DNA of 64,000 nt from Asterochloris sp. CNOR1. Taxonomy: Eukaryota; Chlorophyta; Trebouxiophyceae; Trebouxiales; Trebouxiaceae. Position numbers and translations under genes: made by a program. The notes below the pieces were generated by a model. It was not told where the DNA came from. It made no database searches and was given only the letters and a program-made list of their open reading frames with translations. Every line of letters begins with the position of its first letter. Positions within the stretch are counted from its first letter, which is position 1. Where the stretch lies: NCBI GenBank assembly GCA_963969365.1, contig OZ017762.1:1240001-1304000 (forward strand). Reading direction: 5' to 3'. Below are positions 21,532 through 60,101 of the stretch, one piece after another.

Positions 21532-24500
21532 CAGGCTGCCTCCCGGCAGGATGCCTGCACGACGTCTTTGACCATCTGCCCCCTCAGGCGCTGTGCTGTG
21601 TGAGCTGTGTCTGCCGCAGCTGGAGGGACCTGAATCACGGCGCAGCAGCAGACCAGGCGTGGCGCGCCTTTTACGAGCGCAAGTGGCCAGCCCCGGCCTC
21701 TGCAGGTTGGGCCCACCTGGTCGCAAAGAGCTTGCCCTGCCAAGCTTGACAACAGGCTGTGCCGCCTCGAGGTCTAGTTACTCTTGCTTGAAAGAGGTCG
21801 CCTAACATCCTCCATCTGCTATTTCATTACAACAGAGGCAAGCTGGCAGAACAGCCTGATTTAAGTTGTGGCTGGTTGTGATATGATGTCGATGGCACAC
21901 TCTAGATGCCCGCAGACACATGTGTTGCAGCCAGCAGTGCAGGTGCAGCATGGAGCAGCTGACGGCCAACAGGGGAGTCAAGTCTTGTGCTTTGCCTTGC
22001 CTTGCCTTGCAGGGAGTGATGGTCTTCTCATGGTTAGCTTCTCCCCTGCAGGTGCCCTCAGAAGGAGCTGGCAGGCACTTCAAGTTGTGCTTGCACCTTC
22101 AGACACCCCTCGCGCACAAGCACCATCAGCAGGAGGTGGCAGGCACGCCACCATGCACCACAAATATGCAGCATGTGTCCAACAAAAACATCTCCTCCCT
22201 GCAGGCACCCTCCGCAGGAGCTGGCAGGCGCAGTATGGCTCCAAGATGTGGCAGGCACGGAGCTTTGGCGGGCGCTTTGACCAGGACACCCTGCACGGCC
22301 ACCAGGCAGCAGTGCGCAGCCTGGCCATGCTGCCTGGCAGCAACCTGCTGGCTACAGGTGTGCACCTGCCGCCTTGTCATGCAGTCTGGCTGTGACGCTG
22401 GCTCTGGCTGAGTACACGCTTGCCCCATGTGCTGCCTGGCTGTAAGTGCTGGCAGTACATATGGGCGGGGAGCCGGCTACATTCGTAGCCAGGCCATGCT
22501 GCCTAGCCATGCTGCCTGCAGCAATCTGCTGGCCACAGGTGAGAGGAGCAACCTGCTGGCCACAGGTGAGAGGATGCAATTGGGGTGTTGGTGCGCCTGC
22601 CACTTGAAGCCTGCACCATGCTGTCAGGCAGCAGATTGTCTGTGCCGCCTTGTAGCAGCCTGCTGGTCTTTGTGAGGGCCATGCCTGCCTGCTGCAGGCA
22701 CCATTGTTGTGCTGCAGAGCGCCTTGCTGGGCCAGCTGTGCAGCGGACGCTCAGTTTGCGGCACCTGCAGTCAGCATGCTGCCCTGCTTTGCCACCACTC
22801 AAAACCCCTCCTGTGGTGGTGCACCTGCCATGCCTGCAGTGCCCTCTGACCAGACCATGAAGCAGGGACCTCAGAGCAGGCTTGCTGCATGACACTCTTG
22901 CCCGCTGCCAGGCTTGCAGGGTTCACACACCGGACTAGGAAATGCTGCACCACCCCCACCGAGGTGTGTGATCTACCATGCCTGCAGGGTCCTGGAACCA
23001 GACTGTGTAGAGCTGCATCAACCCCACCGAGGCGTGTGATCTGCCATGCCTGCAGGGTCCTCCGACCGGACCGTGAAGCTTTGGGACCTCAGAGCAGGCA
23101 TGCCTGTGGCGACCAGCAAGCTGCATGGAGGCCCTGTGCGAGCAGTGGCCATGGAGGCAACCATGCTGGTCAGCAGTGGGTTCCATGACAGAACCCTCAG
23201 GGTCTGGGAGGCAGGCAACCAGCCTGGCACAGAGGCGGCAGGTGGGCAGCATAACTGCACTCATGCCGGAGCTCACGCAGTGCTGCATGCTTCGTTCCAG
23301 GCTGCAGGTGAGACTCAGTCTGACATACATCCAAGAGGTGGTCAGGGCAGCGCTTCTGCTGTGCGAGAAGAAGTGTCAGTGTCCTGGAGGCTGGCAGCTG
23401 CATGGCACTGCCTGCGCTCATGAGTGCCCTGAACCCGGCACGTGTCCTTCATGTTGCCTGTTGTCCCCTTGCCGCTTGCGTAGCACACTCTTGCATTGCT
23501 AGATATGTGCTGTCGCTGCATCCTCCTGCACCCCTTGCAGGGGGCTTTGACCTCTCCAACCCCACGCGCTTGCGAAATGCGCACATGGGGCCCATCCTGA
23601 CGCTGGCGCTGACCGACACGTGAGGCAGCCTTGCCTGCTCCTGCACACCAGCTGCTGCGAGCTGCAGAGCCCCAGTGCAGAGCAGACTGTTACTTCATGC
23701 CTTTGTTTGCAGCAGATCAGAACACTTGCTTGCAGCAGATCTCCTACAGTGTGAGAGTGCCCTATGCATGGCGGCTAAGATGATGGCAGGCTGCGTCCCC
23801 AAGCTGGCGTTGAACAGCCACTTGAAGAGCCGCTGTCGTGTCAATGGCAGCATGCATCTGCATGCTGCAGGGCCAGCCTTCTCATTTGCTATTTGTGGCT
23901 GCATGTTGCAGCGCCATGTATCTGGCCAGCTGCTGGTTCACCCCATGGATGCTCCTCCAGAGCATGGGCTGCCTTTCAGCATGACTAGCCATGCGTGGTG
24001 AAATTGGGTCAATGACTGCATGCAGCTGGTGCATATCTGTGGGCCCCCATGCTGCTGTTGCCCCTGGAGGCGCCATAGGCCTGCGTGCTTGGGTCTCTCC
24101 TTACCATGATTGTGCCCAATTGCCAATGACCCTGCCAGTGCCTGCCTGCAGGTGCCTGTTCAGTGGCGGGTGGGACTATGCAGTGCGCATCTGGGCCAGG
24201 CACGGCCTGGCCTGTGCAGGCACCCTGGCCTTTGATGACTGGGTCTGGTGCGTGGCCCCTCGGGGAGACAACCTGCTAGTCAGCGCGGGAGTCAAGGTTC
24301 ATGTGCACGACCTCGGCACCGGCAGGCAGCTGCGGCGGTACGAGAACCCCCACGGCGTCAATGTGAGTCTGCCTTGCATAGGGTCACGTGCATGGTCTGG
24401 GCGCTAGTAGGCAGCTGTGGCGTTACGACCAGCCCTGCAGCATTGGTTTGACTTGTCCTGCAGAGCTGCTGCTCACGTCATCCTGCAGTTTTGCTCCGCA

Positions 24501-27298: not shown

Positions 27299-27535
27299 GC
27301 CCTGAGCACAGCGCTACAGGGCACGGAACTGCCTCTGAAACCTAAACTCTGTTCGAACTGAAGAACATTCAGCACTGCATGTGTCCATTGCTTGGGATGA
27401 TGTTATGTGTGGGAGGACATCTTTCCTGCCGTTCTGCATTGCCACGCCATTGTTGTCACCAGATTACTACTACTTCCAGCAAAGGAAACCAGACCGTCCT
27501 TATCATCAATCACATTTGTTGCGGAGCAGTTCGCG

Positions 27536-28205: not shown

Positions 28206-28396
28206 TCACGTTGCTGTTTGGCTAATCTGCCCGAACGCACCCATCACAGTTGTCTATCTAGCCAGCTTCCCATCCTTTTGCTAAACATTTCATTGCTGCC
28301 ATGGAGCTTGCTTGCAATGGCATGTTGCAAAGTGCAATGCGTGTTGAAGGTCAGTCCCCAAATCCATACTGTTGCCCAGGCAATCCTCTGAGTCAA

Positions 28397-31063: not shown

Positions 31064-31148
31064 GCTTGCTGCGTGAGAGCTTCTCCCAGAAGAAGAAGGA
31101 GTTCAACCCAGGTCAAATGGCCCGCCCAGAAGCCATCAGTCCTTGCAG
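31064..31148. promoter_or_regulatory. Candidate bidirectional promoter/5' leader between SMAP-like gene and PARL
   Basis: Only 85 bp separate the minus-strand ATG of the SMAP-like gene (31061-31063) from the plus-strand ATG of PARL (31149). Both leaders and at least part of both promoters must share this interval or extend into the neighbouring gene. No TATA-like box was recognised. An upstream non-coding exon for either gene remains possible. Confidence 0.45.
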
Positions 31149-34100
31149 ATGCGCAGAGCTGCACGCCTGCTGCAGGGTTCGCTGAAACAGCTTGATAGAA
31201 GCTGGCCAGAGATCGAGACCAAGCTTTCATTCCAGCACACACCAGTCAGGACTCAGTTGCAGACTCCTAGTCAACCCCGTTTAGTCCCCAAACCAGCACA
31301 GTTCAACCCAGGATCGGCCTCTGAGGCAGGGACATCTGGCCTCGGTCGCCAAGGAGGACTGGCGCTCCTCACCAAAAGCTTGCAGCAACCGCCCCGCAGT
31401 CCAGGTGCAGTGCTTGGCAATGCGATCACCACATGTCTGCCTCGGACGGCATTGGGGGCCACTCTCCCTTCAACTGCCTCCTCTGCTGGACATGCAGGGT
31501 ACAGAGGCATTGCCAGGCAGGCAATATTTGCGGCCGGTGTCTCAGCAGGAGCGTTTGTATGGGCAGCACACAGAGACCAGCAGCAGAGACTGCACCCCAA
31601 GCGGGTGGGAAAGCAACTGATGCTCAGTGTCTTGGGCGTTCTCGCTCCTGCCGGCCCATGGCTGCAGGCAGCCACATCTCAGATGCCTGGCTGCCTGTCT
31701 GTTCAGTTGCCTGTGCACCAGCTTTGTCTGCAATTGCAGGTGCAATTGGTCCTGTGTCCTTCAGCAGGCATGACTGTGCCCTAACTTGCTGCGACTCACA
31801 GCACTGCTTATACTTGCTGCAGCTGCCTTGTGTGTGCCCTGCCCGCCCTGCTTTGCACTGCGCGCTGACACATTTTCCGCCTGCTACCACTGCACTGCAC
31901 AGCTACCCCTGCCAACATCGACGCGTGTGCACCATGCTGCGCATGAGGGCAGCTATGCCCCTGCCTGCTGCCACACTCAGCTTGAAACCACTCATTTCTC
32001 ACAGCCGCCAGCTTTTCTTATTGCCCTGCAGACTTGGCGCTCACCTGGTGGCCTCACCTTAAAGGACCGGACAAGGCTGCAGGCTCTACCCAAGGGTTTC
32101 ATTCGTGACACAGCTCGTGGAGCCCTCACGTGGTGGAACGCTGTGGAGCCCAGCAAGCAGCCGGTGTACATTGTCACAGGCATCAGTCTGGCAGTCTGGG
32201 GCCTGTGGAACGTGCCCCGTCTCACAGGCTTCATGGTCCGCAACTTTGTGCAGGCGCTGCCGCCTGCAGCAGGCTCTCGGCGTGTGCTACCCATGCTGCT
32301 GGTGAGTATTGCGGCACAGTCGTAGGGTGGCAGTGCATGGAGGTGGCGCTGAGCAGGCTCTGCCACCTGCTGCCTTACGCCATGCCCTGCCTCATGCTGC
32401 TGGTGAGCGCGGCAAGGTAGTGCTGGTTGGCTGTGTCGACCCTGTGCAAATGCTGGCGGCTGCAGCTGCTGCCAGGAGGATGGTCACATCGCTGCTGGTG
32501 ATCGTGCCTATGCAGTCCCATCGTGGCATTGCATCAAGGCATAGTCAGGCAGGCGCTGCCGCCTGCAGTCGCCCCATTCGGACCAGCCCCGTGCTGCTGG
32601 TCAGCAGGGCAGGGCTGTACTGATGAGCTTGGAATTAAGTGTGCACAGCACCTGCAGCTGCCGCCTGGATGGTGTATGCACCCCATGCCGCTGCAGAGCT
32701 GGCCTGTGCAGTCCCAGGGTGGCATTGCATTGGGGCAGGGTCAGCAGGTGCTGCTACCTGCAGCTGCCAAGCAATACTGCCAGTGAGCTGAGGACACATG
32801 TGCCAGTCGGCACAACGCAGTATTTTGAGGCAAGCTTGTGCAGTTGCTGCTGCCTGCAAGCAAAGGCAACGGAGTGGCAGCCATTTGGGTTTGAGGTATA
32901 GCCAAATCTATGGGGCTTGCTGCTTCAAAAAGCCCTCATCTCCTAAGCAGCCTACCAAGGCCTCACCTGCGCATCATTGCCGCCCTGCAGGCCAACTACA
33001 GCCACTCCAGCATCTGGCACCTTGGGTTCAACTCCCTCGCACTCCTATCATTTGGTGAGAGCCGTGCGCATCCACTTCTGTAAGCTGCCAGGGACACGTG
33101 AGGACTGCTGCCCTGAGTGCATCTCGGCAGTCAGCGCTGGAGGCTGCGCCTGAGTACTATAATCTCACTGCAGGCACTGTCAACCTGCAGCATTTGCCCC
33201 CTCTAGTCTGCCATCCTGGCTCATCGCCAGGGTGTGCACTGACCTGCAGAGCCCTCCTGTGTGCATGTGTGCGGCCACCTCAATGTGCCACTGCAAACCT
33301 GCTGACAGCAACAGGGAGCACAGGCGCCGTCACGGTGTGCAGCCACGGTGCCCCTCAACTCCCAACCTTCTCTCTGCTGGCACAGATCTGCTGTCGACTG
33401 CTGCATGCAGGCCCCCTCCTGGTGCAAAACTACGGCGCCCCCCAGTTTCTTGCCTTCTTTGCCAGCGCCGGTGTGGCCAGCAGCCTGATGGCCCACGCCG
33501 GGCGCCTGAGGGCTGCTGTGCCCTCTGGCAGCCTGGGCATGAGCGGGGCAGTGTACGCTGTTGTGGTGGCAGTGGCCACCTTGTACCCCAAGCTCCAGGC
33601 CCAGTTCATATTCCTGCCGTTCATCCCCATAACCCTGGACGTCCTGGTGCCAGGTGAGCCTGCAAAGAAGTGGAGTATGAAGCATGCAACTGCTGTACAT
33701 AAATGCATTCAGACCCAACGCATCTTCCTGAAATTCATCCCCATCATTCCGGACATCCCAGTGCAGGTGAGGCTGCAGTGAAGCTGCCCGATGCTGGGGT
33801 CGAGTTGACATTATGGCCACGCATGCAGTCCTGGCACTTGCCTTCTAACTATTCACCGGGGACACATTGTTGCCAATCGAGAGCCTGCCCTCACAATGGG
33901 CCAGTGCTTGGCAAGCACTGTTGTCACACTGCATGACATGACTGTCAGCACTGACTTGTCCTCCAAGCAGCCTGGTCTCTCCAGGTGATGGCTTATGCCC
34001 ATATGCTTTATGCTGCACACGGCTGCCAGCACTTGATGTAAGCTTGTGAGCTCTTTGTTGTAGGCTCAAGGTTGCACTGCTTGCCTGCAGGCCTAGTGAT

Positions 34101-37452: not shown

Positions 37453-37945
37453 TAGGGCTGGACCAGGAGGACCAGTGGTCCGGTCCCACCCAGTGCGAGC
37501 AGCTTCAGGCGTGCCCTGCTATGCCTCCTACCCAGGCACCACCTCCGCGTCCCCCAGGGGACACCAGGCAGGGGCAAGCAGCTCATCCTAGCTCAGAGGT
37601 CTTGTGAGGCCAGCTGGCCGCCTCCAAGGCTGTCTCGGGACTGCCTGCCTGGGCAGTCAGCCTGCTGAGCGGTTGCCAGAGCTGCTGGCGCCCAGCAGCG
37701 GAAGCAAGGAGAGCTTTGGGCCTGTCAGACCTGCCTGATCGGCAGACAGCATGGGCTTTGACGAGCAGCAGCTGGTGGGGAGGATGCTGGCGACACCCAC
37801 CTGGCCGCAGGTGTGACCGCCATCAGAGGCCTGGCTGCACTGTCAGAACAGTGGCCGCAGAGTCGCGCATTGAGCCTGGTGGCATGCTGTCCCGCAGAGG
37901 GCCTCCCCACCAGCAGCCTGCTCCCTTAGGCAGCAGAGTGCTGCG

Positions 37946-38065
37946 CCTGTCACTGCTTGACGCTGCTTGCCTGTCACTGCTTGACGCTGCTTGCCTGTCA
38001 CTGCTTGACGCTGCTTGCCTGTCACTGCTTGACGCTGCTTGCCTGTCACTGCTTGACACTGCTTG
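37946..38065. repeat. 24-bp tandem repeat, five copies
   Basis: Five head-to-tail copies of a 24-bp unit (begins cctgtcactgcttgacgctg) at 37946, 37970, 37994, 38018 and 38042; only the fifth has a mismatch (gacactg for gacgctg). Because 24 is a multiple of 3, frames are open through it on both strands (CLSLLDAA plus-strand, SSSDRQAA minus-strand), which does not show that it is coding. The near identity indicates recent expansion. Confidence 0.97.
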
Positions 38066-40462: not shown

Positions 40463-40528
40463 ATGGGCCTGATGCAGTCCCTGTCAGCATCAATCTATCT
40501 GATTGAGGCGCCCTTACTAAAGCACCCC

Positions 40529-42391: not shown

Positions 42392-42725
42392 GTTTTGCTT
42401 GAAAAGCTGAGGGGTCCCTCCATGCTGAAACAGATTGCCAGGGGAGCATGTCTGCCATACAGTAGGCAATAATCCAACATCAAGAGTTCATTTGCTCTTG
42501 GAGGCCTGTCAGACGGCCTGTCTGAGACAGGCCAACAAGGCCTGTGCTTGGCAGGGGAGCATGGTAGTAACCCATCGCAAGTGCGACAACTCAGTAAGCT
42601 TACAAGAATGGCGTGCAATTGAATAGCTGCATAGGTGTGTGTTGACAGCTCTCCGGCAAGAGGGCTAGCACCCTTCCACAGGGCAGCCCCCGGGAAACGA
42701 AGGGCGACTTAGTGGTAGTAGCGTT

Positions 42726-45700
42726 TCATGCCTTGTGCGGAGTGATCTTCATTGGCATTCCCTGCACAGCAGCAAGAGTGCAGACAATCCAGGGAGGGTC
42801 AAGCCAGGGGGCAAAGCAGAGTGGAGCAGGCAATACTTTGCACAGCAAAGCAGATACTCGCCCAAGTTTGACAGTTGGGGAACAGCATAGCAGAGCAGTT
42901 TATGCATTGCAAATGTTTCCAAGCAGGCCATACGGTTCAGTGTTGCTGGAGCATTGTAGACAGGTAACTCACTGCAAAGGCCAACTTCAACACCAAGGAC
43001 CCTCACCTGAAGGGGCTTCCACAGAGGAAAGCTGGTCACAGGCTCATCCAAGTCCACCGTCCAGTCAATCTTCCTGGCCATCACAGCCAGCAGCACCTTC
43101 ATCTGCAGCGGCCAAGGCCAAGATGTCAAGCCAGACTGCGGGAATCGATAATGCCAATCTCACTAAAAATGGACTTGAAGGTCAGGTGATTGCCAGCCAC
43201 CATGTTTCTTTGAGGCAGTGCCTTTGCCACACAGACCTCCCCACTTTTGCTCACTACCCTGTGCCGTGGCAGTTGAAAAGACAGGCATGAGCCGCAGGCC
43301 AGCCCCCGCCCTGCAGACAAAGGCTCGTCTGCAGTTGTCATCAGGTTATGGTCGCTTTAGACTCAAGTACCAACAGCACGTGCAAACAGGTCCATGGAAT
43401 GGACCTGCAATATTGGCAAGCAGGGCCATGGGCACTGTCTTGGCCACACCAGCTCATGCTGACTGAGGTGGCTCTGGGTCCTGCACAGGGGCTGCAGCCT
43501 CAGGGCACCACTGGTCATGCAGCCAGCAGGATGCCTCCTGTTGATGCTTCCTGTTGAGGCAGCTAGCAGCAGGGAGCAGGTGCTGATTCACAGCTGGGAC
43601 TGAGCCATTCCATGTTCAAGGTGCGGCTGGTGGGACTGAGGATGTGAGGCGAGCTGGCAGCGAATGACAGGTAGAGCCAGGAGCCTACCCGCTCAGACCA
43701 CAGGCTGATGCATCCACCAGGAAGACTGAGCAGCCACCTGGCTCACCTCTTGGACAGCAAACACGCTTCCCAGGCAGCGGCGCGGCCCCGTGCCAAATGG
43801 AATCCAGTCACCATCCTTCCTGCCCTCCTCACTCAGCCACCTGCAGATGTAGGGTGTGCACATGGCACTGTGGGCACAGTCCTGCTGGCAGCATGGGAAG
43901 ACATACAGGTGAGATTGCGTTAAGTCACAGCCAGTCGCACGCACCAGCTGGACGCACTGTCTCCCAGGCAATGTCACCCAAATGCAGCTGCTAGCAGGCT
44001 CCTTCTGCTGCAGTTATCGGCAGCGGAACAAAGCATCCCACACATTGACCCAATTTCCTAAACATTGCGAAGGCGACTTGCTCAGTGCTGTCCCTCACTT
44101 CATGCAGTGGCTCACATATCTGTTGGACGTGGCAGCTGTCAAAAACGTCTCATCAGGAATAGCATGAAGAGCATCAAGCAGCCAGGCATTGCCTGTGGCC
44201 CACGGCGCCCACAACTCTCGCTGACCTGTCAGGGTAGAAGTTGTCAGGGCTCAGGGGACCCTCCTCCTGTGCCCAGCGAGGATCCTCTTTTACAGCCTTC
44301 CACAGGCTGAGCACGACCAGGCAGCCCTGCAGACAAGGCAGCACATGACGTGTGGGGAGCATGCATGCTGTAGATGCACGGCTCACTTTGGTCGCCCTAC
44401 CCTCGACATGCCTGCTGCCACGTCGTCTGTATTGCTAAGTCTTGATACAGTCACCAAGCAGCCCACGTCAGAGATGTGGTAGCTAATGACTACATCGCGA
44501 GTCCTTCCAAGCCAGTGCCTGACAGGGACAGATACGACAGCAATGCTGCCTTGGCCACTGTTGCCTGAGAGACCTGCCCGCCCTTGACAATCCTGCCCCT
44601 GACACTCCTGCTACATGGCCTTCACCCTTTTACACAGTCGGAAGCCACACAGTAGCCTGCCTTGGGAATGTGGTACCCTTTGACCTCAAAGTCCTTCAGC
44701 GCTTTGCGGATGAGGACGCCCACCACCGGCACCAGCCTCATGGTCTCGCGCACCTGCAGTGGCAGCCAAAGCCTCTGCCAAGACGACCACCACACTCAGT
44801 GCTTCTCTGTCAGCACCAGAATTAGCCTCATAATCTGTGCACCTGCAGTGGTCACCAATAGCACAGCGCAACCAGGAATCAGCCAACCGCACTGCTGCCA
44901 CTGTAAAGTCGTGCCCTTCAGGTCACTGCCAAGTGAAAGGGACAGTGCAAGCAGGCACACAGGGCACGCACAAGGTCAGAAGCATGCAGGCAGTGGCAAA
45001 AAGCAACCAACCAGGACACAGCCAAGCGCACCACTGCCTCTGTGTAGACCATGTCCTTCAGGACAGCGGCAGTGATCTGCTTGCCGTGGGTGGCCATGAC
45101 CTGCATTGCGACCAAAGCATCCGTTGAGGCACATCTGTAAGCCCTGATGCTACATTGGAGGGTGCAGTGGCTAGCAGGGATGTCAGGAGGAAGGCAGGGC
45201 ATACAGCGTCCAAAGAAACCCCCAGAGGTGATGTCCTGCCAAATGGGTGCAACAATGTGTGACCAAAGTCATCGGCCTGCTGGACCCCCCACCCCCATCC
45301 AATGGCAGCATGAAGTGTGACCATTTCAACCTTTACCCAGCACATGGGCCACTAGGACGCCACACCGCGCACGGCTCTGCGTGCAGCCTAGCCTGTTATG
45401 CACCTGTCTGCACTGGGACTGGCCTCTCTGTGCTCAGCCCACAGCCTCAGGACACTATCGCACAGCAACAGTGTGTGCACACCAGCACAGGAAGGTCTTG
45501 TGCTGCGGCAGGCTCCACATGCCAGCAGCTCAGGGGGCGCACATGCTTATTTCCCACAGCAGCACAAAAGCTACAAGGGCTGACAATGTATGCGTGAGGT
45601 CCACGATGCAGGCCTCCCAAATGCGTGTCTTGTTTTGCCCTGAGCCCAGCTCGGTCAGCCCCACTCATTTTGCTGTCTGCAAAGGAGTGAGGCACTTAGT

Positions 45701-48700
45701 TTTGGCATGCTACAGTAGGACCCAGATGTTACGGGTAACCACGGTCGTAATAGAAGGGTGAAGCTCACAGGTTCCTTTCCCCAGCACCACCCCATTTTCT
45801 GAGTCGCATAGTGTGTGCCAAACATGCGTTGTCTGCATGCCTGACCTTGTCCTGCTTGCCCTGCAGCTTCATCACTGCCTGTGGGTACTGCTTTACAGAG
45901 TCCATGGCTGCCCCTATCCTCAGCGCTGCTTGGTCTCACCAGAGGGAAAGGAGGTGTAGCCAGCATCATAATGTCAAGCCCATACACGAGCAGCCAGCCT
46001 GACCTTGGCCTGCTCTGTGCGCAGCTTGGTCAGTGCCTCTGGGTGCTGTTTCAGAAAGCGGGTGGCCACCATGAGGGTACTGGCGCTGGTGTCATGCCCG
46101 GCGAAGAGGAAGGTCAGCAGCGAACTCTGCAGGCTCAGCATGGGGCAAGCCAGTGGAAAAGTGTTGTTGAGCTCAAGTCAACAATGTAAAGAGGAGGTCA
46201 GCAGGGCTTTGTGCAGGCACAGAGTAGCAAACAGCAAGAGCTCAGCAAGATTGATAGTGTCCTGCAGGCACATGGATCAGTGATCATGCCAGCAATGTGC
46301 AAGGTAGCAAAATGGTGTATCAGCAGGCAACGCCCACCCCACTTCCCCACATGCCTGTTGAGTGCACAAGCTGGGCAGGTTGGCAGCGCACCATGCAGGC
46401 ACAGAGTATGAGACAGCCACTTCTCACTGCAATCAGCTGTAGTGTCAGCAGTTGAGATGAGGTCTGCATGGGTCTGGCACCTGCACATGATGCAGTCTGG
46501 AGCCCAGGTCCTGGTTCAGAGCTGGGCCAGTGATTGGCTTACAGCGCCTCAGGGAAAAGCACATGCTTGATCTTTGGGACACTGCATCTGCAGCAGGCCA
46601 GCGGCAAGCATGATGCTGCCGTGGGCTGACCTTTACTCCTTGCTTGCTCCAGCCTGGCACCTTGGCATTCAACATGACCTCCATTGTGTTTGCGTCATCC
46701 CTGCATGGCCACGCAATTACAGTGCAGGCACAACAGAACATCAGGCTGGAGAACATGTCGGTATACAGCCAAGCTTGTGTGCTTGTCCCTTTGCAATACA
46801 GGCTTTTGAAGGCATCGGTAAGCAAAGATAGTGAGCAGACCAGCAGGCGTCCACTAGGCAATGCTTGTCCCTGCACATCACACCTGGGCCTATGCATCCC
46901 ATGCAATTCATGGAGATGTTTTCAGGGAGGTCGATGTGAGAGTGGCCATCCGCATTCAGGTCAGCGGCCTTTGTGATAAGCAGGGAACTCGCCTCACGAG
47001 TGCAGGGCGTGCAGCTTACAACTTGCACAGAGCACTTGGGCAGGCAAGCTGATGGAACAGGACAAGCAGCATGCTGACTAACAGTGGCCAATGCTGGAAT
47101 AGTGCATGAGCGCATGCTGCAGGGGAAGCACTGCACAGCTTGCATGATGCTGAGACTTGCTTGACACCAACTGGTGTAGGAGGTGGATTGCATGCAACAG
47201 GTCACTGCAAAGCTGTACAAACCCGGTGGCATCAGTCAGGTCCTCCATGGCCTCATCCAGGAGCTTGAGCAGGCGGCGCCGGGCGTTCATGCCCCTCCCA
47301 AAAGCTGCATAGCACTTTTGAGGTGGTGTATGGTCTGCCATACATCACCAATTGGTTTCAAATGATGACAAATGCTTTTTCCAGGGCAACGCTGAGCAAA
47401 TTGGGCCGCAGGCAATGTCATGGTTGCCTACAGAAGGCTGTAGGGCGGCAACAAGATAGTGCTCAGTGGCTGCCAATATGTGGTAGCTGGTGAACTGTTG
47501 CTGCTCATGATGGCAGGGCAAGAAGAACATGTCAAAGGCACCATATCTCTCCCCAGAGCTCACAACAACACACCTTTGCTGCAGGAGCGCTGCAGGAAAG
47601 TAAGCAGGCTGCACCCCTTCCAGTGCAGCAGCAGCACCCCTGAGCAGGCCAGGCACAGGCGTGCTATAGCAGGTGCATGCAAGCGCAAATTGCATGCTGG
47701 GCCCACAAAGAAATGGCAGGGACCCAAGAAATGGGCAGTCCCACCTGTCCAGGACACATCCAAGGCAATGGGAGACGTGAACCCCTCCAGCCAGTCACCA
47801 AACAGGTCCCTCAGCTCCTCCAGGCGCTCAGGGTCTAGCCAGGCGCGGTCCAGGCCCATCACCAGCTCGATTGCAATCTGCAGGCATCACAGTGGCTCCA
47901 GCATCTGCCAGCATGGCAAGCCTGGGTGGAGCAGGACCCCAGGCGCATGGGGCGACCCCGTCACAGACTGCAGGCAGTGGATGCAGCCGTGCGGGGGTGA
48001 ATGGGGGGGGGGGGCTCTTTGCATTTTGGGCAGGGTCATGAAGCAGGCTCAGCTCAGCTCAGCCCCAGGGCGTTACAGGGCAGCTGGCACATCCATCTGG
48101 CAAACAACTGCATGCAGCAAGTGCAGTTCAGACCTCAATACATCACGCCAGGCTGCAGCAAGCCGGCAACTCTCACAACGCCCCCTTCTACATGATGAGC
48201 TCCCGAATTGCGCAATGGGTTGTGCAGGCCCATGCCACATCAAACTCCCAAGCATCTCCCAGATGCAGCATGCATTGCTAGAATCCCTACCTCAAATGTG
48301 TAGCGCTTCATGGCAATGACACCGGAGATCTGCCCCTTCTGCAGCCACTCGTCAGTCTGTGCTTCAGCCAGCTCGGCCATCCTCTCAGCGGTCCTGCCCA
48401 CATTTTGGGGGCCCAGGAAGCGGGGCGCCAGCAGCTTGCGCACGGCCGCATGGGTCTTGGGGTCCTTCAGGTTATTGATGGCTCCTTCGCCCGTCAGCTG
48501 GGCAATCGCTGGCTGATAGTGCACTGCAGCAGTGACACGAAGAGGGTAGGGGGGAATTGCTGGGGCCTGCATGGCTCTTAGAGGCTGATCACACGCTGAG
48601 TGTTGCCCAATGTGATGGACGTGCCCCATATGGGGTGCCCTAGGGCCTTGGCTGCAGCAGTACTGAACCTGTTTGATTGGGCCATTTGTCAGTTATGCCC

Positions 48701-50450
48701 CTGTTCTGAAAGCCTAGAACTTACTGCCCCAAGAATCTTGATCGCAAAAATTCATTATAACCGTTGAGCCCTGCAGTTTTCAAGAGAGGCACGGGCACGT
48801 AGGGTCATACCAGTGTAATAGAGGCTGCACTCTGTGTTCGACCAGGTCTGATTGTATTATGCCTCCGTGACAAGGCCCTGAAACAAATGCCCCCTACAGA
48901 GCAGGCCGTTGGGGTTAGGCCGAGCAGCAGCACATTTTCCCAGACCACAGCTTGAACAAAAACTCTGCCTGTGCAGCGTGCTGCTGTTGCTGCCGACAGA
49001 TATGGTGGCAGCCAGCCCGACAAAACCTCAGGCGACCTAAGACCTTTCATGAACCTGTGCTGCCTGATGACACTCTGTCCACCCACCTTGCTCTGACCAA
49101 ACTCTGACCCTCCGCCCAGTTCTTTGCAGACCTGATCATCTTCCAAGAAAGACAGCAGTCAGAGCTGACATGCAGAAACGTCAGCCCGCCGTGTCATCAG
49201 CCTGACTGCTGCAGCACCACACCATCAGAACTGAGCTCAATTACACCCAGTGCAGGGGCCTTGCTTTGCTCAGGTCTGCCCCCAGGGGGTGTTGTCCCTC
49301 ATGGGAACTTGAGGGCCTAAACTGGACTTTGTTGGGCGCTGAAAGTCACCTTTGGACTGGCAGCGCCTGCAGCAGGGGCCAAGCAGCAGCCTGTGCTTCA
49401 GCGCTGTGCCACAAGCACTCACTGACATAACCGACCATGAATGGTCCCCCACGCTGGCCAGAAGGCAGCTCACCTTCAACCCAGTCCTCCTCAGACATCA
49501 GGATTTTCTTGATAGAGTCCCCGTCCCCGACGCACACAACCTGGTTGAACCCCAGGTAGGCGCGGAAGAAGGCGCCCAGCTCCTTGTGACGGCGCTCGGT
49601 GTATCCCTTGGGGGCTTCCTGCAGCCATGGGCTTGGGAGCGTTTCCAGTTTCATAAATGATCCTGAAAATATTGGAAAGTACCTGTATAGGGACTAATGA
49701 TAACATTTCGCATCTGGTGGGAGGCACGACAGCAACTTTGTCTATGCTGAGCTGCGATGTCGTGAAAATGCAGTGCAGGACACAGATTTGCAGGATGCTG
49801 CCAGGCCAGCTTTGGCTTTGTAAGGTCCCCAAGGGCTGGCACGCTCCTTTGCTGCGACAAGCAGTCGCAGCAGCGCCATAAGAACCAGCATGCTTCAAGC
49901 TGCATAGTCTTTGACCAGAAGCTGGCAGGTGCACCACGCATTACCGAAGGAGGCCACGCAAACACTGGCCGCTGCAGTGTGATTGTGGCAGGCCCAAGGC
50001 ACACCTTGCCTGGCCAGCTGACCACTGAACGCTGCATGGGGAACGTGGACCATAGCTGGCCACCACATGAGGTGATCTCTCTCCATGGCATCAAGGCCAC
50101 ATATTGCCTCACCTTGCCCATAAAAGCAAAAAGATCACCGATGCCTGGGATCTGCCTGGGTGCCCATGGTGGCTGCCGCAGCTTCCTGCAGCAATATGCA
50201 GAATGACCTGGCGGACTGCAGGTGTGTACAACCCTGCTGCACTTCACATCTGCCTGGAACCCTCATACAGCATCTGCTCTCTTCAAGAACCTCAGTGAAA
50301 TGACCGCATGCAGCCTTGCTAGTTCTTCAGCCTATCGGCAGCAAAAAGCATGAGCCCTCACCTTGCCGGCCTGAATGCAAGGTAGGTCACAACGATGCCC
50401 AGGAAGGCCGCTGCGGTGACTGCAAAGGCTAGCAGGCTTTGATCGGCCAT
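42726..50450 (-). CDS. Cytochrome P450, CYP85-clan (CYP26/CYP120-like)
   Basis: Membrane-anchored haem monooxygenase; substrate unknown (the clan covers sterols, retinoids and carotenoid- or hormone-like molecules). Resolved exons: 50362-50450 (anchor LLAFAVTAAAFLGIVVTYLA), 50113-50185 (PGIGDLFAF), 49474-49618, 48291-48523 (THAAVRKLLAPRFLG), 47745-47877, about 47219-47304 (AFGRGMNARRRLLKLLDEAM), 46004-46126 (I-helix FAGHDTSAST), 45032-45100, 44661-44753 (K-helix ETMR, the ExxR motif), 44226-44326 (NFYPDR), 43747-43840 (haem loop FGTGPRRCLG), 43007-43102, 42726-42761 (GMPMKITPHKA, stop). AFGRG followed by a basic run is a CYP85-clan signature. A stretch between the AFGRG exon and the I-helix exon (46.13-47.2 kb) is unresolved. 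All catalytic motifs are present. The intron after 44661 uses a GC donor (AAG|GCAGGC), which joins HIPK to GCLVVL in phase. Confidence 0.92.
44807..45905. repeat. Copies of P450 exon edges inside its introns
   Basis: The K-helix exon acceptor edge (44721-44767) is repeated at 44807-44856 with the same ...gcacctgcagtgg core. The end of the I-helix exon (46004-46066, encoding FLKQHPEALTKLRTEQAK and a GTCAGG donor) has a decayed twin at 45842-45905. The twin reads VKQYPQAVMKLQGKQDK with the same GTCAGG donor. Both copies lie in introns next to the exon they resemble. Confidence 0.8.
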
Positions 50451-50621
50451 TGAGCTCTGTGTGAAGCGCCCCGTGCACTTTTCAGGTCTTCAGGAAACGT
50501 TGCTCGGCAGGTGCGACTGAGCTTCTTGGATGGCTGGCCAGCTGCTGATCGAAGTAAGCCCGGCAAGTACCTCCAGACGTGGCTCAGAATCTGGTCAACG
50601 TTTTCATCAGGCTAGAATAAG

Positions 50622-53600
50622 ATGAAACGCCCTAAAATTCGCTCAGGCTTGATCATGCAGAGCCACCAGAGGGCATGGCTCCTCATCAATGCCCTGCACA
50701 GAATGGGTCACCAGCTTCCGGCAACTGCTGTCCTGGCTGTCAGATCATTCAGTAAGGAAACCAAACCTGTGGCACCTCCAGCCCCTGGCACAGTCAACCC
50801 CTACACACAGCACATATTCATCAAGATGGCCCCCTTGCATAACGACTCTCAAGCGAAGGCCTTGGCACAGCAGCATGAGGGCATCTGGTGGCCAAGTGTG
50901 GTGGAGAGGTAATCATCTGCCTGGCTAGCTTGTTGAGAGGTGCACGAAGACTGCTTCACAGCTTGTGGCAAGCACAAACAGCCTGCACCAGTTATCACCC
51001 CAACCGTTCTGTTGGCCCAGCATGGGGGCCAGCTACTCAGCCCCAAGCTCTGATGTATTGGTGCCATGCCAACCTCTGTCTTTCTGTCCTGCCTGCAGGC
51101 ATCCCGCCATTTTGCAGGCGTTTGCTGCTGTTGCTAAGCTGAAGGCTTCCTTGGACGGTGTGGTCAAAGTGACAGCCTATGAGGACCTGCAAAGGCAGAC
51201 GCTTCAGGAGGCAGGCAGCGATGTGGCAGATCTCAAGCTGTTCCCGGCAGGTGAGCTCATTCTGTGATGAGACATGCCCTGGCAGGAATCAGAGGCTGAA
51301 AGGTGGACTGTACAGGGGGCAAAACCTCACATCAACAAACCAGGAACCACCTGCGTGTCTAGCGCCAAACTCTATCTGGCAGGTAAGGGCTGGCAGCCAG
51401 TCATGACGTCTTCGGTTGGGAATTCATTGCACTACACAAGCATGGGAGAACAGGCGCGGCAGGGCGCAGGGGTACAGTGAGCAGGCGACAGCTGGCAGGT
51501 GCTGCCTGTGCAAAGGACAGACCAGGAATGTGCCCCAGGAAGGGGCTGGTCAATCATGGCAGGCACACACAGCAGCTTAAAGTACTCGGCTCACATGGCG
51601 CCGAGACACTCTGCCGTGCCATCAGCTTTCCCTGCAGCTGCACCCGCTGAAGTCGAAGCACCATACCTGGCCAAGCTCTAGGGTCTGCAGCGGTGCACAC
51701 CAGGTATTTGTGTGGTGTACCTCCTTGCCTGGGGCATGCAGCAGCAGTGTGCTCTGTTTGTGGGTGCTGAAAACAGTGTTTGAAGCATGTCTCCAAGCCA
51801 TCAGCGAGAGCTGGAACAGCCCACAGCAAGCTGTGCTGCTCATGCATGCCACTGCCTGCAGCTGAGCACCACCTGCATGGAGCTGCTAGCACTGCTCTCT
51901 ACCCTGCTCATAGGGATGGGACAGACTCAGCCCCACGTCTGTACGACTTGCGTTGCACCATAGCTGGCATCGGACCTGCTGCACAACACACCGACCGCTC
52001 CCCTGGTCAGCTATAAGCCAAGCACAAGCATTGCTTCTGCTGCGCTGTCATGCAGTGGCCACCACGACCTCATTCTGCAGCTATGCAGTGAAGGGGCCAT
52101 GTCAAACCTGATGACCGTAGCATGCGCACTGACACCAAGTCCTGCAGCTGTGCAGTATGAGGGCATCCCAGTCCCACGTCTGGGTGAGATAGTCACAGCC
52201 CACCTGCAGCCGCAGCCACTATCTGAGATCCACGACGCCTCCACGCCACCGGTTAACTTGGTGAGTCACTGCATTCTTGAAGCTTTGTGCTGGGGAGAGC
52301 TTGCAATCGGCATGTATTTACCTATGTATATGCTGTACTCTGCTCATTCCCCAAAGTTGAGGTTGTTTTATCCTCTGTGGCTTACCATCACTGGTCTTGC
52401 TGGATTCGCTTCACTGTCCTCCCGCTGACCTCCTGACATCTGACTGTGAGCCTGCGCGTGTGGGAGTTTCACTCTCTTCCTGGCTGACACTCTGCTGAGT
52501 CCCCTGCTGCCGCTTAATGCTACTGCCATCTGCCAACCTGATGGTGTGGATGCCTCATGCCAGCCAGCCGCCCCTCCTTCTGAGCTGTGCTGGCCTGTGC
52601 TGCAGCAGCGGCCTGACCTGCTGAGATGCCAGAGGGACAGGGAAGGCATCTGTCTTGTCTTCCTGCTGCCATATCCCTTACCAACATGCAGTGGCTGAGG
52701 CCCCTGCATTCGCTGCTCCACCATGTGGTCTGGCGCTCACCACGCAGTCGCGTGCTACTGCAGCCGCTCGACCTGTGGGGACGCCTGAGAGACACTGGAA
52801 TGAGGACCTGTCATTGTGGCTGTCTGACATGCTGCCATGTGCTGCTGCAGCCGCCCGATCTGCTCCGGCGCCAGAGGGAGATTGAAGGTGTCGACCTGTT
52901 CGTGTGCTGCCACGGCGCTCGCGACCAGCGCTGCGGGACAAGGGGTCTGGCGCTAGCTCGTCGGCTGGGCACTCTGGTGGAGCAGCAGGGTCTGGGGGAG
53001 CATGTGCGGGTGCACAAGTGCTCCCACATTGGCGGCCACAAGGTGAGCGGTTCTGAGCCGGCAGGTCATGCGTGCATGATTGTTCCAGTCCGGCACTGGG
53101 GTGCAGCCCTGTTGCAGCAGCAGGGCCTGGGTCAGCTTACGCGCATGGCATAGAGCACCAGGTAGACGGTGCTCAGCAGCTGGATTGACGTGCATTGACT
53201 TACCAAAGCCAGGGCCCCCCCATTTGCAGCATTGCTGCATTTGCAGCAGCAGGGCTCTGGGGAGCGTGTGTGGTCCCACAGGAGCTCCCATGCAAGCGGT
53301 TGTGGGGTGGCGTCTGTGCTGGGGCCAGGTCTGGCTTCAACAAACCAACTGTACCCACTGTAGCTGTTGAGCACTGCCCACAATGGGTGCCATGTGGACG
53401 GTCGCAGGGCAGGGTTGGACATAGGTAGCAGCCCAAGAGCGCTGGGCTAGCTCAGATTGAGGTGTCCTGCATATCTGATCCCTTGCAGTGCTGGAGTGTG
53501 CTCAATGCTACAGTGGCGCTCTGGTGCAGCAGGGAGCCATCGGCAGGCATGTGCTGTTGTGAGTCAACGAGCACAAGGTGGACCTGGACAAAAGTCGGCA

Positions 53601-55116: not shown

Positions 55117-55379
55117 AAGTCTGAAGTGCAACTCGGCTTGGACCACAGCTAAATCAGCTTACAGTCTGAGATGAACAATAAGCAGCCAGCTAGTCCATCA
55201 CAGGACGTTGTACACTCAGTGCTGAACTCTAAGCACGTGGGCAGGGAGCATCTGAATGGCAGATGTTCTGAAATAGTATTTATGAACCTAGCTGAGCCAG
55301 TTGTTGCAATTCGAGCCATCTCAGGCTGGTGTACGGTCTCGCAGCATGCATTTGGTGGTCTGGCAGCTGAAAGCAGTAA

Positions 55380-58300
55380 TCACCATGGCTCCACAACCTG
55401 CAGCAGGTCATTGGTCTCAATGTTCTGCAGTTGTGTAGAAATTGTCCCTTAGGCAACCTGCTTGGCCCCAAGCAGCCACGACATACCGCTGCTGCCAAAG
55501 TCAGCAGCTTGTACTGTAACATGTAGTAAGGCACAGGGGTACAGCGTGGCTAGCAGCAGTACCACAAGGGCCTGACCTGGGTTGAGATCCAGGCTCACTC
55601 ACCTGGTGGTTTCCCTTAGCAAATGGGTTCTCCTCGTTCACCCCCAGGCCGCTGAAGGTATGGTTCACAAAGGAGTGGCAGGCTTCATCTGCCCTCACGG
55701 CAAGGAGCAGCTCCCTCATGCCGGCGTCCTTGCCCAGCCGCCAGTACATCTTGGCAATGTCGGGGGCCTGCGGGGCAGAAAGGAGAAGTCCTGTGACTTG
55801 TGCCTAGGTCTCATGGTCTGGGGCCATGTCATGACACTTGTCCAACGTCAGCAGAGGTCACTAGTGCAGCCATCAGCACGGCTCTGCCATGATCAGAAGC
55901 CTGCAGCATTCCTGATCAGAAAGTTACGAAAGGCAGGGCGTCAGATCACTCGTACAGATGTCTGACTCCAGCCGCCAGTGCACTTCTGGCAAGGTCGGGA
56001 ATCTGCAGCACAAACGAGGAGGGATCGCAGCATCTGTTTAATCACAGACTACCCTGTGAGCCTAATTACAGACTCCCCCTAGTGCCTAAGGGGGGTCTGC
56101 AGACCAGCATAGTCTGCAGCTTAGCTGACAATGGACTGAACCATCTGAGCTGACACATGTGCTGCTGCTTGTGCTATACTTCAAGTCAGCAAGCCAAATA
56201 ACCTCAGCGGCACCAGGAATTGCTTCACATGGCAGGCACTGTACTGTACTCAACAGCAAGTGCGGCCAGCAGGCCTCCCACCTGGATGTGCGACCAGGTG
56301 GGCAGCTTGCCCACATCGTGGATGGCGTGGGTGTAGGTCTTGACAGCTTCCTCCTCCAGGTATCCCACAAATGCGTGGCAGGACTTGGGGGAGATCAGAT
56401 ATGCCTGCATAGGGGTACAGGGGTGAGTCCATGAGGCTGAGTCTATGAGGCATGTGGGGGTGCTGACTGCACGACTGCATTGTAGGGGGTGCAGGGAAAA
56501 TGGACACCAGGGACGGCAACTGGGGAGTTGGGGGAGATCAGGTACGTCAGGAGAGGCAGCTTTACAAGGTGGGATTAGCCGGGGCCAGCCACCGTAGCAG
56601 AAAGCACAAACAAGGCGACACTTGCACCACTGAGGGCAGGATGGCAGGGGAGGGTTGCGCAAGCGGAGCATAATGACAACAGCGTCATACAATGGCAGGG
56701 GAGTCAAGAGAGCAGCATGTTTGATGTTGGCTTACCAGCAGATACAGGTTGACAAAGACGCCCTACAGGCATCACAGCAGTATGTTTGTTGACATTGATG
56801 TCCCTTGACCCAGGGCGCGCGGAGCCAACAGGTGACGCAGAGGCAGCATGATCATAGCAGGATTCCTTTGTGGGCGTGCCTGTCTGAGGCACACTCAGGA
56901 TGTGCACCATTGAGCAAGGTGTCGCACCATTGAGCAGGGTCCTGCATCTTCAGGGAAGCTGACAGGCACGCAGGCACTCAGGTGCACACCTCTACTATAG
57001 TGTGACCTGCTCGAGTCTGCTGTGCACTGCTCTCTCCAGGTCAGGAAGCGAGCTCAGCAGATGCTGCTGGCACAGGCCGCTCACCTGCCCCAGCAGGACT
57101 ACCCCCCTGAACAACGGCCCTGGCTGCTTGAGCGCCAGGAAGGTCAGCAGGTGCATGCGCTCATTTTCAGCCTGCGACAACAAGACGTGTCCCCCTCAGC
57201 TTGTCGTGTGAGTGTTGACAAGGTGCTGTGGGCTCGTCAGCTGTGAGAGGCAACACAAGGGATGGTTGTATCAGCCTCGTTTGCATCAGTCAGGTGCATG
57301 TCCCTACTCTCAGCCAGTGCAGGCATCAGACATCAGCCAGGCTTGGCAGGTGTCTCTGAGGACAGCATGCAAAGCTCATCAGTGCTGGCACAGATGCCGC
57401 TGAGGCTGCTTGCAGACAGCGCACGGCTCACCTCCTCCAGCAGCGTGTGCACCCACCCATGGTCACGCCTGCACAGCACGGCCAGCCATGGTTGGAGCAG
57501 CAGGCTGCAGTTTGAGCATCAGGCTGCCGGTACTGGCCCTGCAGCTGCCTGCCAGGCTCAGCCAGGCAGAGAGGCGGTCACCAGTCAGCACTGTGCCTGC
57601 AATGCCAGTCACAGCCAGGCAGCGCCCAGCCAGTGGGCAGAGTGCAGCAGATGCAGCATGGCAACAGATGCAACACTCGCAGCTGATGAGACATGGAACC
57701 TGATGAAAACACAGGGCAACACTGCAGCCCATACGGCAGCCCATACGGCAGCAAGCAGAACAGTGTCAGCACCAGGCAGCATCAGGGGCAACCTTCACCT
57801 CATAAGCCTCAGAGACTGCAGGTGTCTCAGCATCGCTGCCACCATGCCAGGTACGCCTGCAGCAGCACACTATAGCTCTGACGTGCTGGAGAATGGAGGG
57901 CAGGCTAAGCACAATGCCCTGGACACATATCCACACAGTGCAGGTGCATCAGCGCGGATGACTGCATGTCAGCAGCACGTTTTATGCCAGTTTGTCCCAA
58001 GCACAGGCCTAGCACGATGCCAGCAGCAGCTGTTGCTGGGTGGCTTGATGCAAGCAGAGGCTGCACCTCTTCACAAGCTACCATCTACAAGACAACTGCC
58101 TTTGTCCCCTTTGTGCCTGCCCCAAGTGCATTGCGGCAGTCCAATTTGCCGCCTGCAACGGTCTTCAAGACCATGGCTCGGTGCAGCTAGCGCTCCTCGA
58201 CCGTCTGCTTGTGTGGCAAAGGCAGACATGCGTGCCTCAGTCTAAGTGAGTTTGCTGCAACTCCCCACAGGCCGCAGTCTCTGTGGACATGGCTGTCTGC

Positions 58301-60101
58301 CATCACCTGCTGCTGCTGCCAAGAGTCGGTGCCCTGGCCACAGCTGCACGCAGTGAGGCACTGTGCATGCAGCAGTGCTCCCCTCACCTGCAACAGCCTC
58401 CAGGGGCAGGCACCGCTGCACTGCTCACCTGCAACAGCATACAGGAACAGGACAGGCTGCACTGCTCACCTGCGACAGTCTCCAGGAACAGCATGCGCTG
58501 CAGCCAGCGCTCCTCGCTCATCTGCTTGGACGGCTTGTACCCTGTGAACAGGTCAAAGGTGCCCCTCATCAACTGCACCGTGTAGAATCCAATCTTCTCA
58601 TGCGCCTGCATACGCACATGATCTTTCACTGCTGCTTGCTGCAGCCTTGTCCTGTGCTTGAACATACGGGTCACAGCTGCGGCCGACTGGCTGATCAGCA
58701 TGAAGCTGAGATGTCTGGTGCGAAATACCAGGCAGCATGCTTGGCGGTCACTTGCATGCCTGTGACAAAGCAGGCTGCAAGGGGGACTTGAACATCTGAG
58801 CAGACAGGTCAGCAGCAGAGACAGCACTGACATACCGTCTTTGGGGGCTTGTGCTTAGGCACTACTGACTCCACATACTCCTTGCTGTAAACGGGCTGCA
58901 GCACAGAAGGCAGCTGTTCAAGCCTTGCACAGGGAGCTGCTTAGCCACTGACCATTTGCCATGGGGCTGCTCACAATGATCTGGAAGCCTGAGCAGGATG
59001 AGTATCAACCCCCTCACAAACTGCCACAGGCCTGCTCCCTGTGGTTCAAGACAGCTGCAGGGAAGTACTGACACCCTCACGACCTACCACAAGGCTGCCC
59101 ACATCCCAAAGTTTTGATCAGGGCGGCAGAGAGTGTGCCACTCCCATTCGTGAGGGAGAGGGGGCGCTCACGTGCACAACAGATGAATGGGCACTGCCAC
59201 CTCTTCTACTGACGCAGCCCGACCACTTCTCCCCTGACCCCTGTGCAAGGCTTCTGCCCAGGACTGTGCCAGAATCATTGTGCTGCATCAGCAGGCAGCA
59301 GCGTGCGACATCTCTGCTTCAGCAAGAAGCCCATGCATCACTCCAGACGACACCCAGGGCTTGCCACCATCGACAGGCTTTGTAGAGATTTTAAAGTCAG
59401 ACCTCCTCAGGACACCATAGATCAGGACATTACAGCTCAACACACCACAGCTTGTCTGCATCCGCCCTCTTCCAGTGCTCTGCTGCACCTGTGTTAGTCC
59501 AGCGCAGGCCAAATTGCGACCATACCTGCATGAGCAGGTAGGGGTGCGCTGCGTCCACCTCAGACGAGGCAGGGCCGCCGTGCTGCTGCAGCCCCGCATG
59601 GGGCGCAATGCTGCCAGTGTCGTAGGTCTTCTCAGGGTCCCTGCCTGCTGCGGGATCCACCTGGGCGCGGCTCTCCTCGGGGCGCCCAGGCGTCATCAGG
59701 GGCTCTGCGCTGTTTTCCAAAGTCGCAGCCTGCACGGGCAGCGGTGGGGTGAGGACAGGCATGGGGTGACACCCTGGCGCTGAGCTCCCTGGTGCAGCAG
59801 CCTCCAGGGACACAGGCAAACCCTCTCTCAGCTCAGTTGTTGCGAATTTTGTGAAGCCCACGTAGCAGCAGCCTGCAGAGGCAGCACAGGAACCCGGGCA
59901 GGCTGGGGGAGGGCAGGGAGATACACAGGAGTCTCCGCTTTGCTTTGTGGTGGTGGCTCCCTTCAGGGTCTGAGGATGGGTGTCAGTGAAGGTGGCCGCC
60001 TTCAGGGTCAAGCAGGGGTCGCGGCCAGCACAGAGGCAGGGTACAAGTGAAAGGCCAGCTGGGGTGCTCTTGAGGTGATTGGTGGTTTGGCCCTGCAGCA
60101 T
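55380..60101 (-). CDS. AOX: Mitochondrial alternative oxidase (AOX)
   Basis: Di-iron ubiquinol oxidase of the inner mitochondrial membrane, which bypasses complexes III and IV. Exons in phase: 59526-60101, 58836-58895 (PVYSKEYVESVVPKHKPP), 58470-58605, 57799-57856, 57432-57468, 57085-57171, 56736-56762 (only 27 nt), 56282-56404, 55603-55767, and a candidate last exon 55380-55424. Iron-ligand motifs are all present: LETVAGVPGMVAAMLRH, AENERMHLLTFL, VGYLEEEAVKTYTHAI and RADEACHSFVNH (ExxH kept). NERMH rather than NELHH separates it from plastid PTOX. The NPFA ending resembles fungal/protist AOX. The N-terminal exon is unusually long (192 codons) and may contain unrecognised introns; the stretch around YVGFTKFATTELREG could be presequence. 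Start and last exon are the weak points. Confidence 0.93.
58378..58502. repeat. Exact 41-bp-period triple donor in the AOX gene
   Basis: The exon ending ...CTGTCGCAG|GTGAGCAG has its GT at 58469/58468. Further copies of ...GCTGTTGCAG|GTGAG follow with GT at 58428/58427 and 58387/58386, exactly 41 and 41 bp away. Each copy contains diverged exon sequence (GTTCCTG...GTTGCAG) and a good donor. A more distant partial copy of the same exon (agcgctcctcgaccgtctgc) lies near 58190. Confidence 0.92.

Follow-up and report, generated by a model that had tools for sequence, protein, structure and literature searches.

The 64,000-nt window examined here, positions 1,240,001 to 1,304,000 of contig OZ017762.1 of the green alga Asterochloris sp. 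CNOR1, has a G+C content of 57% and is dense in introns. Pfam matches among nine window proteins searched identify eIF3c (eIF-3c_N and PCI; 9217-20682), a WD40 gene, a rhomboid/PARL-like gene (Rhomboid), a cytochrome P450 (p450; 42726-50676), a Suc_Fer-like gene of the Apd1 type, and the alternative oxidase AOX (55380-60298), whose predicted protein aligns with solved alternative oxidases (Pfam AOX, 1.4e-90). Introns of all these genes hold copies of the edge of the adjacent exon, and such copies are present in 112 of the 548 introns predicted in a larger sample that includes the window. As a preliminary description of this stretch had stated, many of the copies are diverged and form arrays straddling the splice border, often with its GT or AG. 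The six genes it had named all exist, with six copy-bearing introns in eIF3c, four in WD40, three in PARL/rhomboid, and two each in P450, Apd1/Suc_Fer and AOX. Its range of 22200-58502 does not cover them all, since eIF3c falls outside, and of its F-box/WD40 label only the second half is supported: no F-box family was matched at E<=0.001 in the Pfam search of the predicted window proteins.

The DNA analyzed comprised the window on contig C17, 100 kb on either side of it, and 40 kb of contig C5, amounting to 304 kb of a genome of 56.38 Mb in 21 contigs. For comparison, the genome of Asterochloris glomerata is given in PMC6652019 as 56 Mb, with a G+C content of 56-62% across 98% of its length and a mean of 9 introns per gene. 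A self-trained hidden-Markov gene finder, fitted without labels to the 304 kb, yielded 43 genes with at least 300 coding nt, 42 of them complete and with about 13 introns each. All exon-intron borders are predictions of this sequence model. The predicted introns have a median length of 292 nt, a donor resembling CAG/GTGAG and a strong TGCAG/G acceptor (the slash marks the border).

In the WD40 gene (plus strand), the intron before the exon at 22205 holds two copies of the acceptor edge 22197-22229, at 22044-22076 and 22117-22144 (88% and 86%). A copy of a near-donor exon part lies at 22484-22507, and at 22520-22573 a 27-bp tandem pair repeats the exon end together with GTGAG; the predicted mini-exon at 22539-22565 may itself be a copy. 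Three copies of the acceptor edge 23041-23079, starting at 22825, 22905 and 22973, occupy 22825-23040 in the intron before the exon at 23056; their spacing is 80/68/68, their offsets are 68, 136 and 216, and they belong to repeat families D2 and D8. The donor edge 24295-24350 is copied at 24380-24435 (offset 85; 73% identity). In AOX (minus strand), the intron after the exon 58470-58605 contains a 41-bp array at 58376-58502, to which Tandem Repeats Finder (TRF) assigns 2.9 copies. The array is made up of the exon edge with its donor, at 58458-58502, and of two copies inside the intron, at 58417-58461 and 58376-58420 (76% identity). The same intron carries a copy of the exon edge 58469-58528 at 58152-58211 (offset 317; 75% over 60 nt), and the AOX acceptor edge 56381-56413 is copied at 56524-56556 (offset 143; 79% identity).

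In eIF3c (minus strand), acceptor edges 10271-10344, 11190-11226 and 15221-15271 recur at 10366-10439 (offset 95; 78% over 74 nt), 11281-11317 (offset 91; 81% identity) and 15500-15550 (offset 279; 69% identity), respectively, while the near-donor exon parts 13283-13309 and 13310-13344 recur at 13081-13107 and 12902-12936 (offsets 202 and 408; 89% and 80%). Donor edges 17032-17077 and 19089-19110 have copies at 16936-16981 (offset 96; 80% identity) and 18980-19001 (offset 109; 91% over 22 nt). The copy at 16936-16981 also matches 17128-17169 (offset 192, 76%), within the same exon as the donor edge, and this second match indicates that the exon is itself repeat-bearing (17013-17073 versus 17109-17169). 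A predicted eIF3c intron also contains, at 17880-17987, short CACACAGCCTGC-rich tandem repeats with periods of 12, 33 and 45 bp.

In the rhomboid/PARL-like gene (plus strand), the donor edge 32247-32370 has copies at 32443-32568 (offsets 196, 63% over 124 nt, and 299, 20 of 20 nt; families D6, D12 and D18), the donor edge 33596-33650 one at 33710-33764 (offset 114; 73% identity), and the acceptor edge 33408-33458 a weak one at 33321-33371 (offset 87; 67%, score 17). P450 (minus strand) has copies of the donor edge 45008-45043 at 44869-44904 (offset 139; 83% identity) and of the acceptor edge 46108-46138 at 46374-46404 (offset 266; 77%, score 17). The Suc_Fer-like gene (plus strand) repeats its acceptor edge 52828-52888 at 52588-52646 and 52741-52797 (78% and 70%; family D3), and its donor edge 52968-53026 at 53109-53143, 53242-53290 and 53515-53559 (offsets 135, 264 and 547; 77, 76 and 69%; family D4). 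Beyond these genes, a gene at 5890-7585 with no Pfam family (minus strand) has copies of the acceptor edge 7156-7206 at 7222-7268 and 7307-7345 (offsets 66 and 139; 70% and 72%). A large, repetitive-looking gene reaches into the window on the minus strand (1-5232 and 9.7 kb upstream; 29 exons, 1934 aa, one internal model stop, of coiled-coil look by eye), and its acceptor edge 3990-4027 is copied at 4072-4109 (offset 82; 76%).

The offsets between edge and copy are broad: in 171 exon-edge matches, 124 fall within 60-219 and 64 within 80-139. This breadth rules out a fixed 98-bp period, and the spacing of 94-102 bp previously proposed cannot be upheld as one; the 41-bp (AOX) and 27-bp (WD40) arrays are borne out by TRF periods of 41 and 27. 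More than one offset occurs at 37 of 121 copied borders, often near multiples of a single spacing, such as 41/82/123/164/205, 68/136/216, 96/192 or 129/247, as would be expected of the remains of decayed tandem arrays; the chance rate of such multiples was not computed. At 4 of the 37 borders the offsets differ by 13 nt or less and probably represent a single copy with an indel, and at the other 33 they are clearly apart. A rise in repeat offsets near 195 may reflect second copies, and for single copies decay often hides whether the units touch. Pure intron-intron tandem repeats occur too, and 34 were counted. Young tandem repeats are also present, and one of the eight listed is a 24-bp minisatellite at 37945-38066 with 5.1 copies and 98% matches.

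The window and its flanks (264 kb) contain 357 local direct repeats with an offset of 15-1000 and an ungapped score of at least 18; two Markov shuffles gave 4 and 6. The 112 copy-bearing introns, counted from ungapped repeats scoring at least 17, comprise 54 with a copy at the donor and 67 at the acceptor (121 intron-border combinations), so the two borders are similarly affected. By region, they make up 94 of 475 introns on C17, to which the window contributes 21 of 107, and 18 of 73 in the independent 40 kb of C5; at least one exon-edge copy is present in 36 of the 43 genes. We then compared each exon edge with its own adjacent intron, using length-matched introns from other genes as controls; this search covered introns of 80-1500 nt, exons of at least 30 nt and queries with at least 15 control introns. 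At p<=0.02, where 2% is expected, a match in the adjacent intron was obtained for 17.0% of 388 donor edges (intron downstream) and for 21.0% of 405 acceptor edges (intron upstream). At a score of at least 20, the proportions were 10.8% for donor edges, 11.9% for acceptor edges and 0.01% for control introns from other genes. These results confirm that intronic exon-edge copies are real and far above chance. A mimicry by GC-rich low complexity and common splice motifs, or an artifact of the gene models, is hardly credible: the models are predictions, with some doubtful mini-exons, several of which resemble copies mistaken for exons (e.g. 22539-22565), but the control introns share motifs and composition and yet give 0.01%, swapped introns pass the anchored test in only 1 of 328 cases, and Pfam supports the six genes.

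The copies are also specific in what they repeat and where they lie. Among exons of 150 nt or more, which supplied 144 donor and 144 acceptor edges, slices lying 0-30 and 30-60 nt from the border had copies in 14-24% of cases; further in, at 60-90 and 90-120 nt, the rate was close to background (0.7-4.2%). Repeats are accordingly non-random relative to exon borders, and the random placement that would have spoken against the preliminary description is not what we observe. On such exons the copied part extends no more than 77 nt inward in 74 of 75 pairs, and the exon source of the copies is about the outer 60-75 nt. Exons having a copy are longer (median 168 nt, versus 96 for exons overall). 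A middle slice of the intron, used as query against its own intron, matched in 5.5% of 328 cases. Donor edges compared with introns one to three places off gave 0.4-3.1%, and their reverse complements 2.3%, with 0 of 388 at a score of at least 20. The copies are thus essentially confined to the adjacent intron and to direct orientation. Introner-like or other mobile elements inserted next to exons could account for repeats in many introns, but the copies match the adjacent exon, other introns of the same or other genes stay near background, and reverse-complemented donor edges never reach a score of 20; we regard this origin as very improbable. The comparison with introner elements rests on exon-edge queries, which are near background in other or non-adjacent introns, and no search aimed at intron families without reference to exon edges was made.

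We propose, with a probability of roughly 75%, that the copies go back to old, short tandem duplications straddling a splice border, with the spare copy spliced out as intron. Judging from the smallest offsets, the duplicated units would have ranged from tens of bases to about 200, sometimes repeated into arrays. Where a donor-spanning unit was doubled, use of the upstream donor would leave the messenger RNA (mRNA) unchanged, as would use of the downstream acceptor where the unit spanned an acceptor. The spare copy would then become intronic, add one unit of length and decay at about the neutral rate, and the duplication would be tolerated because splicing removes the spare copy. We infer this choice of splice site, and likewise that duplications arise all along genes and that their focus on borders is partly survivorship. 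At the DNA level, the cause could be replication slippage or break repair with fill-in.

The decay of the copies is consistent with old events. Read outward from the border in 37 donor and 41 acceptor pairs, identity lies around 0.75 on the exon side and becomes near-random just past the splice motif. This sharp end suggested splice-precise copying, a candidate that we rejected because simulated old tandem duplications come close to it. With the intron decaying neutrally and the exon under constraint, simulated donor-crossing duplications of an age of 0.3-0.5 substitutions per site gave identities of 0.56, 0.40 and 0.31 at +0-4, +5-11 and +12-25 (indel 0.1), or 0.46, 0.34 and 0.27 (indel 0.2). 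The observed intron-side values are 0.55, 0.30 and 0.31 (23 pairs with 66-80% exon identity), so that the simulation stays above the data at +5 to +11 (0.34-0.40 versus 0.30). In the old-event simulation, identity past the motif is near-random because both copies drift there; an initial simulation in which many events were young did not reproduce the sharp drop. The spare GT is retained in 17 of 37 copies (0.58 expected from neighboring bases) and the spare AG in 36 of 54 (0.61 expected). Spare sites therefore decay as their surroundings do. The earlier proposal that each spare splice site later decays is thereby weakened, since the decay proceeds at the same pace as in the surroundings; retention gives no sign of purging, and selection against spare splice sites was set aside as a candidate.

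Paralogues give a further view of the age of the copies. The P450 paralogue (locus L033, C11:2527464-2534733) keeps most intron positions, its introns are 76-87% identical to those in the window, and third codon positions differ at 11.7% (35/299). Both window P450 copies recur at the same borders in this paralogue, with offsets of 266/264 and 139/128, which indicates that they are older than the gene duplication. Their conservation is neither clearly better nor clearly worse than that of the rest (29/36 versus 193/226; 29/31 versus 403/465). The pair is useful for dating intron changes. The AOX paralogue (locus L032, C1:160351-165055) has several matching exons (136, 27, 123 and 165 nt), and its introns, 70-75% identical in a permissive alignment, are too diverged for a clear reading of gaps; none of the window AOX copies was found at the same offset in it at the threshold used.

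Several observations weigh against border-straddling duplication followed by neutral decay, and the reading frame of the copies is the first of them. The best copies (117 pairs), read in the exon frame, contain 2 stops in 1308 codons, one of them in a copy of the WD40 array at 22825-23040. Permutation predicts 21.2 (standard deviation, sd, 4.3), codon-position matching 18.3 (sd 3.9) and triplet matching 16.6. Off-frame stops are near expectation (38 and 33 versus 44.7 and 28.9), and introns at large have 2.9% stops in every frame. Near-stop codons have turned into stops in 2 of 304 cases in frame (0.7%) and in 41 of 723 off frame (5.7%), where neutral simulation gives 4.7% and 5.8%; its bootstrap reached 2/304 or less in 0 of 5000 replicates, and 8/428 or less at a frequency of 0.0008. 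Such an open frame would be expected if the intronic copies were functional, either translated as alternative or missed exons or serving as edges of alternative splice sites, and the retention of AG in 36 of 54 copies would fit as well.

Function as a general explanation nevertheless appears unlikely. In their amino-acid changes the copies show no excess of conservative replacements over random (BLOSUM -0.564 versus -0.586, sd 0.053), synonymous changes are not in excess (204 versus 222 expected), and the codon preference of changed codons is near random. Offsets divisible by three are not overrepresented (15 of 54 at donors, 22 of 63 at acceptors), which led us to reject in-phase alternative splice sites, and GT is retained in only 17 of 37. 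Rows beyond the best ones contain 7 stops in 488 codons, giving 9 in 1796 for all rows (23.4 expected by triplet matching), and leaving out TGG reduces the contrast to 2/282 versus 27/617 (p=0.0035). The two P450 copies shared with the paralogue are not clearly more conserved than their own introns. Some copies may still be missed or alternative exons.

The density of copies at borders raises a second difficulty for the duplication reading. Border copies outnumber intron-only copies 121 to 55 (2.20; 525 introns), above the constant-rate expectation. Uniform tandem duplication with neutral decay predicts a ratio of 0.70-0.80 for ages 0-0.6, 1.03 for ages 0.1-0.6 and 1.94 for ages 0.2-0.6, and tolerated placements on the real gene models give 0.56 with 100-nt units and 1.06 with 200-nt units. 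Young pairs, too, lean to borders: the border:intron counts are 22:17 at identity of at least 0.85 and length of at least 25 (p=0.0007 versus a share of 0.30), 13:12 at identity of at least 0.88 (p=0.026), and 20:13 at identity of at least 0.90 and length of at least 20 nt (p=0.0004). Constant-rate simulations moreover give more young copies than observed. A last point concerns exonic reach, which a simulation with the observed offsets as unit length places beyond 75 nt in 29% of cases, as against 1 of 75 observed beyond 77 nt; the short reach is compatible with duplication only if large offsets represent second or third copies.

A process directed at borders, for example transcription- or splicing-linked breaks or template switching that preferentially duplicates exon edges, would account for the ratio of 2.20 against 0.70-1.03 in the uniform models that include young events, for the young pairs, whose border count exceeds the 0.30 share in 7 of 8 settings (p 0.0001-0.026), and for the scarcity of repeats in intergenic DNA (coverage 2.6%, versus 8.2% in introns and 14.8% in exons). 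The uniform model with only old events, however, reaches 1.94, young pairs at identity of at least 0.90 and length of at least 25 show no border lean (8:10, p=0.2), and purely intronic tandem repeats also exist (34). Larger deletions, which lay outside the simulation, would remove intron-intron pairs faster and lower the expected intron-only count. We hold a border-directed process to be improbable. Much of the border excess may be survivorship, because selection holds the exon half of a pair and so keeps the pair recognizable for a longer time than one lying wholly in introns; when ages of 0-0.6 were simulated, detection was 0.44 for pairs at borders and 0.27 for those within introns. In these models geometry and survivorship would explain much of the border pattern, and a residual border excess of up to about threefold may persist. 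The border-linked tandem duplication of the preliminary description holds for the non-random placement, and much of its border focus may be survivorship. It is a doubtful conjecture that borders are preferentially duplicated and that the copies are also kept stop-free in the exon frame despite drifting amino acids, as if routinely read, which would make them a reservoir for replacing or extending exon boundaries.

Duplication lengthens introns, and the claim that it is a main source of intron growth exceeds the evidence. Copy-bearing introns are longer, with a median of 449.5 nt versus 262.5 nt for the others. Copy-free introns with enough length for the array come to 379 nt (sd 17), still below 449.5, and copy-bearing introns without their array to 291 nt. 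Measured from the border to the farthest copy, the spans take up 11.7% of intron bases. Pairing ten P450 introns with those of the paralogue gave seven gaps of 25 nt or more, two of them 275 and 197 nt long; in no case did flank similarity exceed the control maximum, so that none of the seven is traced to duplication; some of them may be losses in the other gene. A dependence of intron length on copy age, a check proposed earlier and run here through copy identity, was not found (rho -0.10, p 0.28). Exon-edge copying alone does not account for long introns.

Intronic minisatellites are a known category, and the copies resemble them where they form head-to-tail arrays, such as the 41-bp array in AOX; they differ in that the unit holds exon sequence and a splice site and that the copies are mostly strongly diverged. 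Both marks of border-spanning tandem duplication, a direct edge copy in the adjacent intron (112 of 548 introns) and a head-to-tail arrangement (37 of 121 borders), were observed. Internal gene duplications that alter exon-intron structure by activating latent splice sites were described by Gao and Lynch in 2009 (as cited in PMC3443670 and PMC4974935). Our case is alike in that duplications with splice sites in the duplicated segment change exon-intron structure. As cited there, however, that work stresses new introns, whereas here existing introns are lengthened. In the potato RdRp gene, as described in PMC4974935, an acceptor-spanning unit was tandemly duplicated, part of the former exon turned intronic and a new intron was made. 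That was one recent event, whereas the copies considered here are old, often form arrays, amount to 121 combinations in 548 introns and are accompanied by no new intron that we saw. In the AGGT model of Rogers, as reviewed in PMC3443670, tandem genomic duplication supplies a second splice site, and a tandem duplication of proto-splice sites is given for Drosophila in PMC2891723. The provision of a second splice site by tandem duplication is shared with the model as reviewed, but there a whole intron arises out of exon sequence, and its donor context resembles its acceptor context. Of the 329 introns tested here, 0 had a donor context matching that of their own acceptor (score at least 18; 0.2 expected), and we rejected whole-intron creation by the same route, of which these introns offered no case.

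In the open-licence literature we found no paper joining tandem duplication at exon-intron junctions with intron length in algae, which does not establish its absence in print. What we describe appears to be a known process in widespread form rather than a new kind of element, set apart by its density, its array form and the lengthening of existing introns. For annotation it calls for caution, as copies can pass for small exons. The copies allow short tandem duplications within genes to be counted and are a source of spare splice sites. They indicate that splicing can shelter border-crossing duplications, leaving exon-derived DNA in about one in five of the sampled introns.

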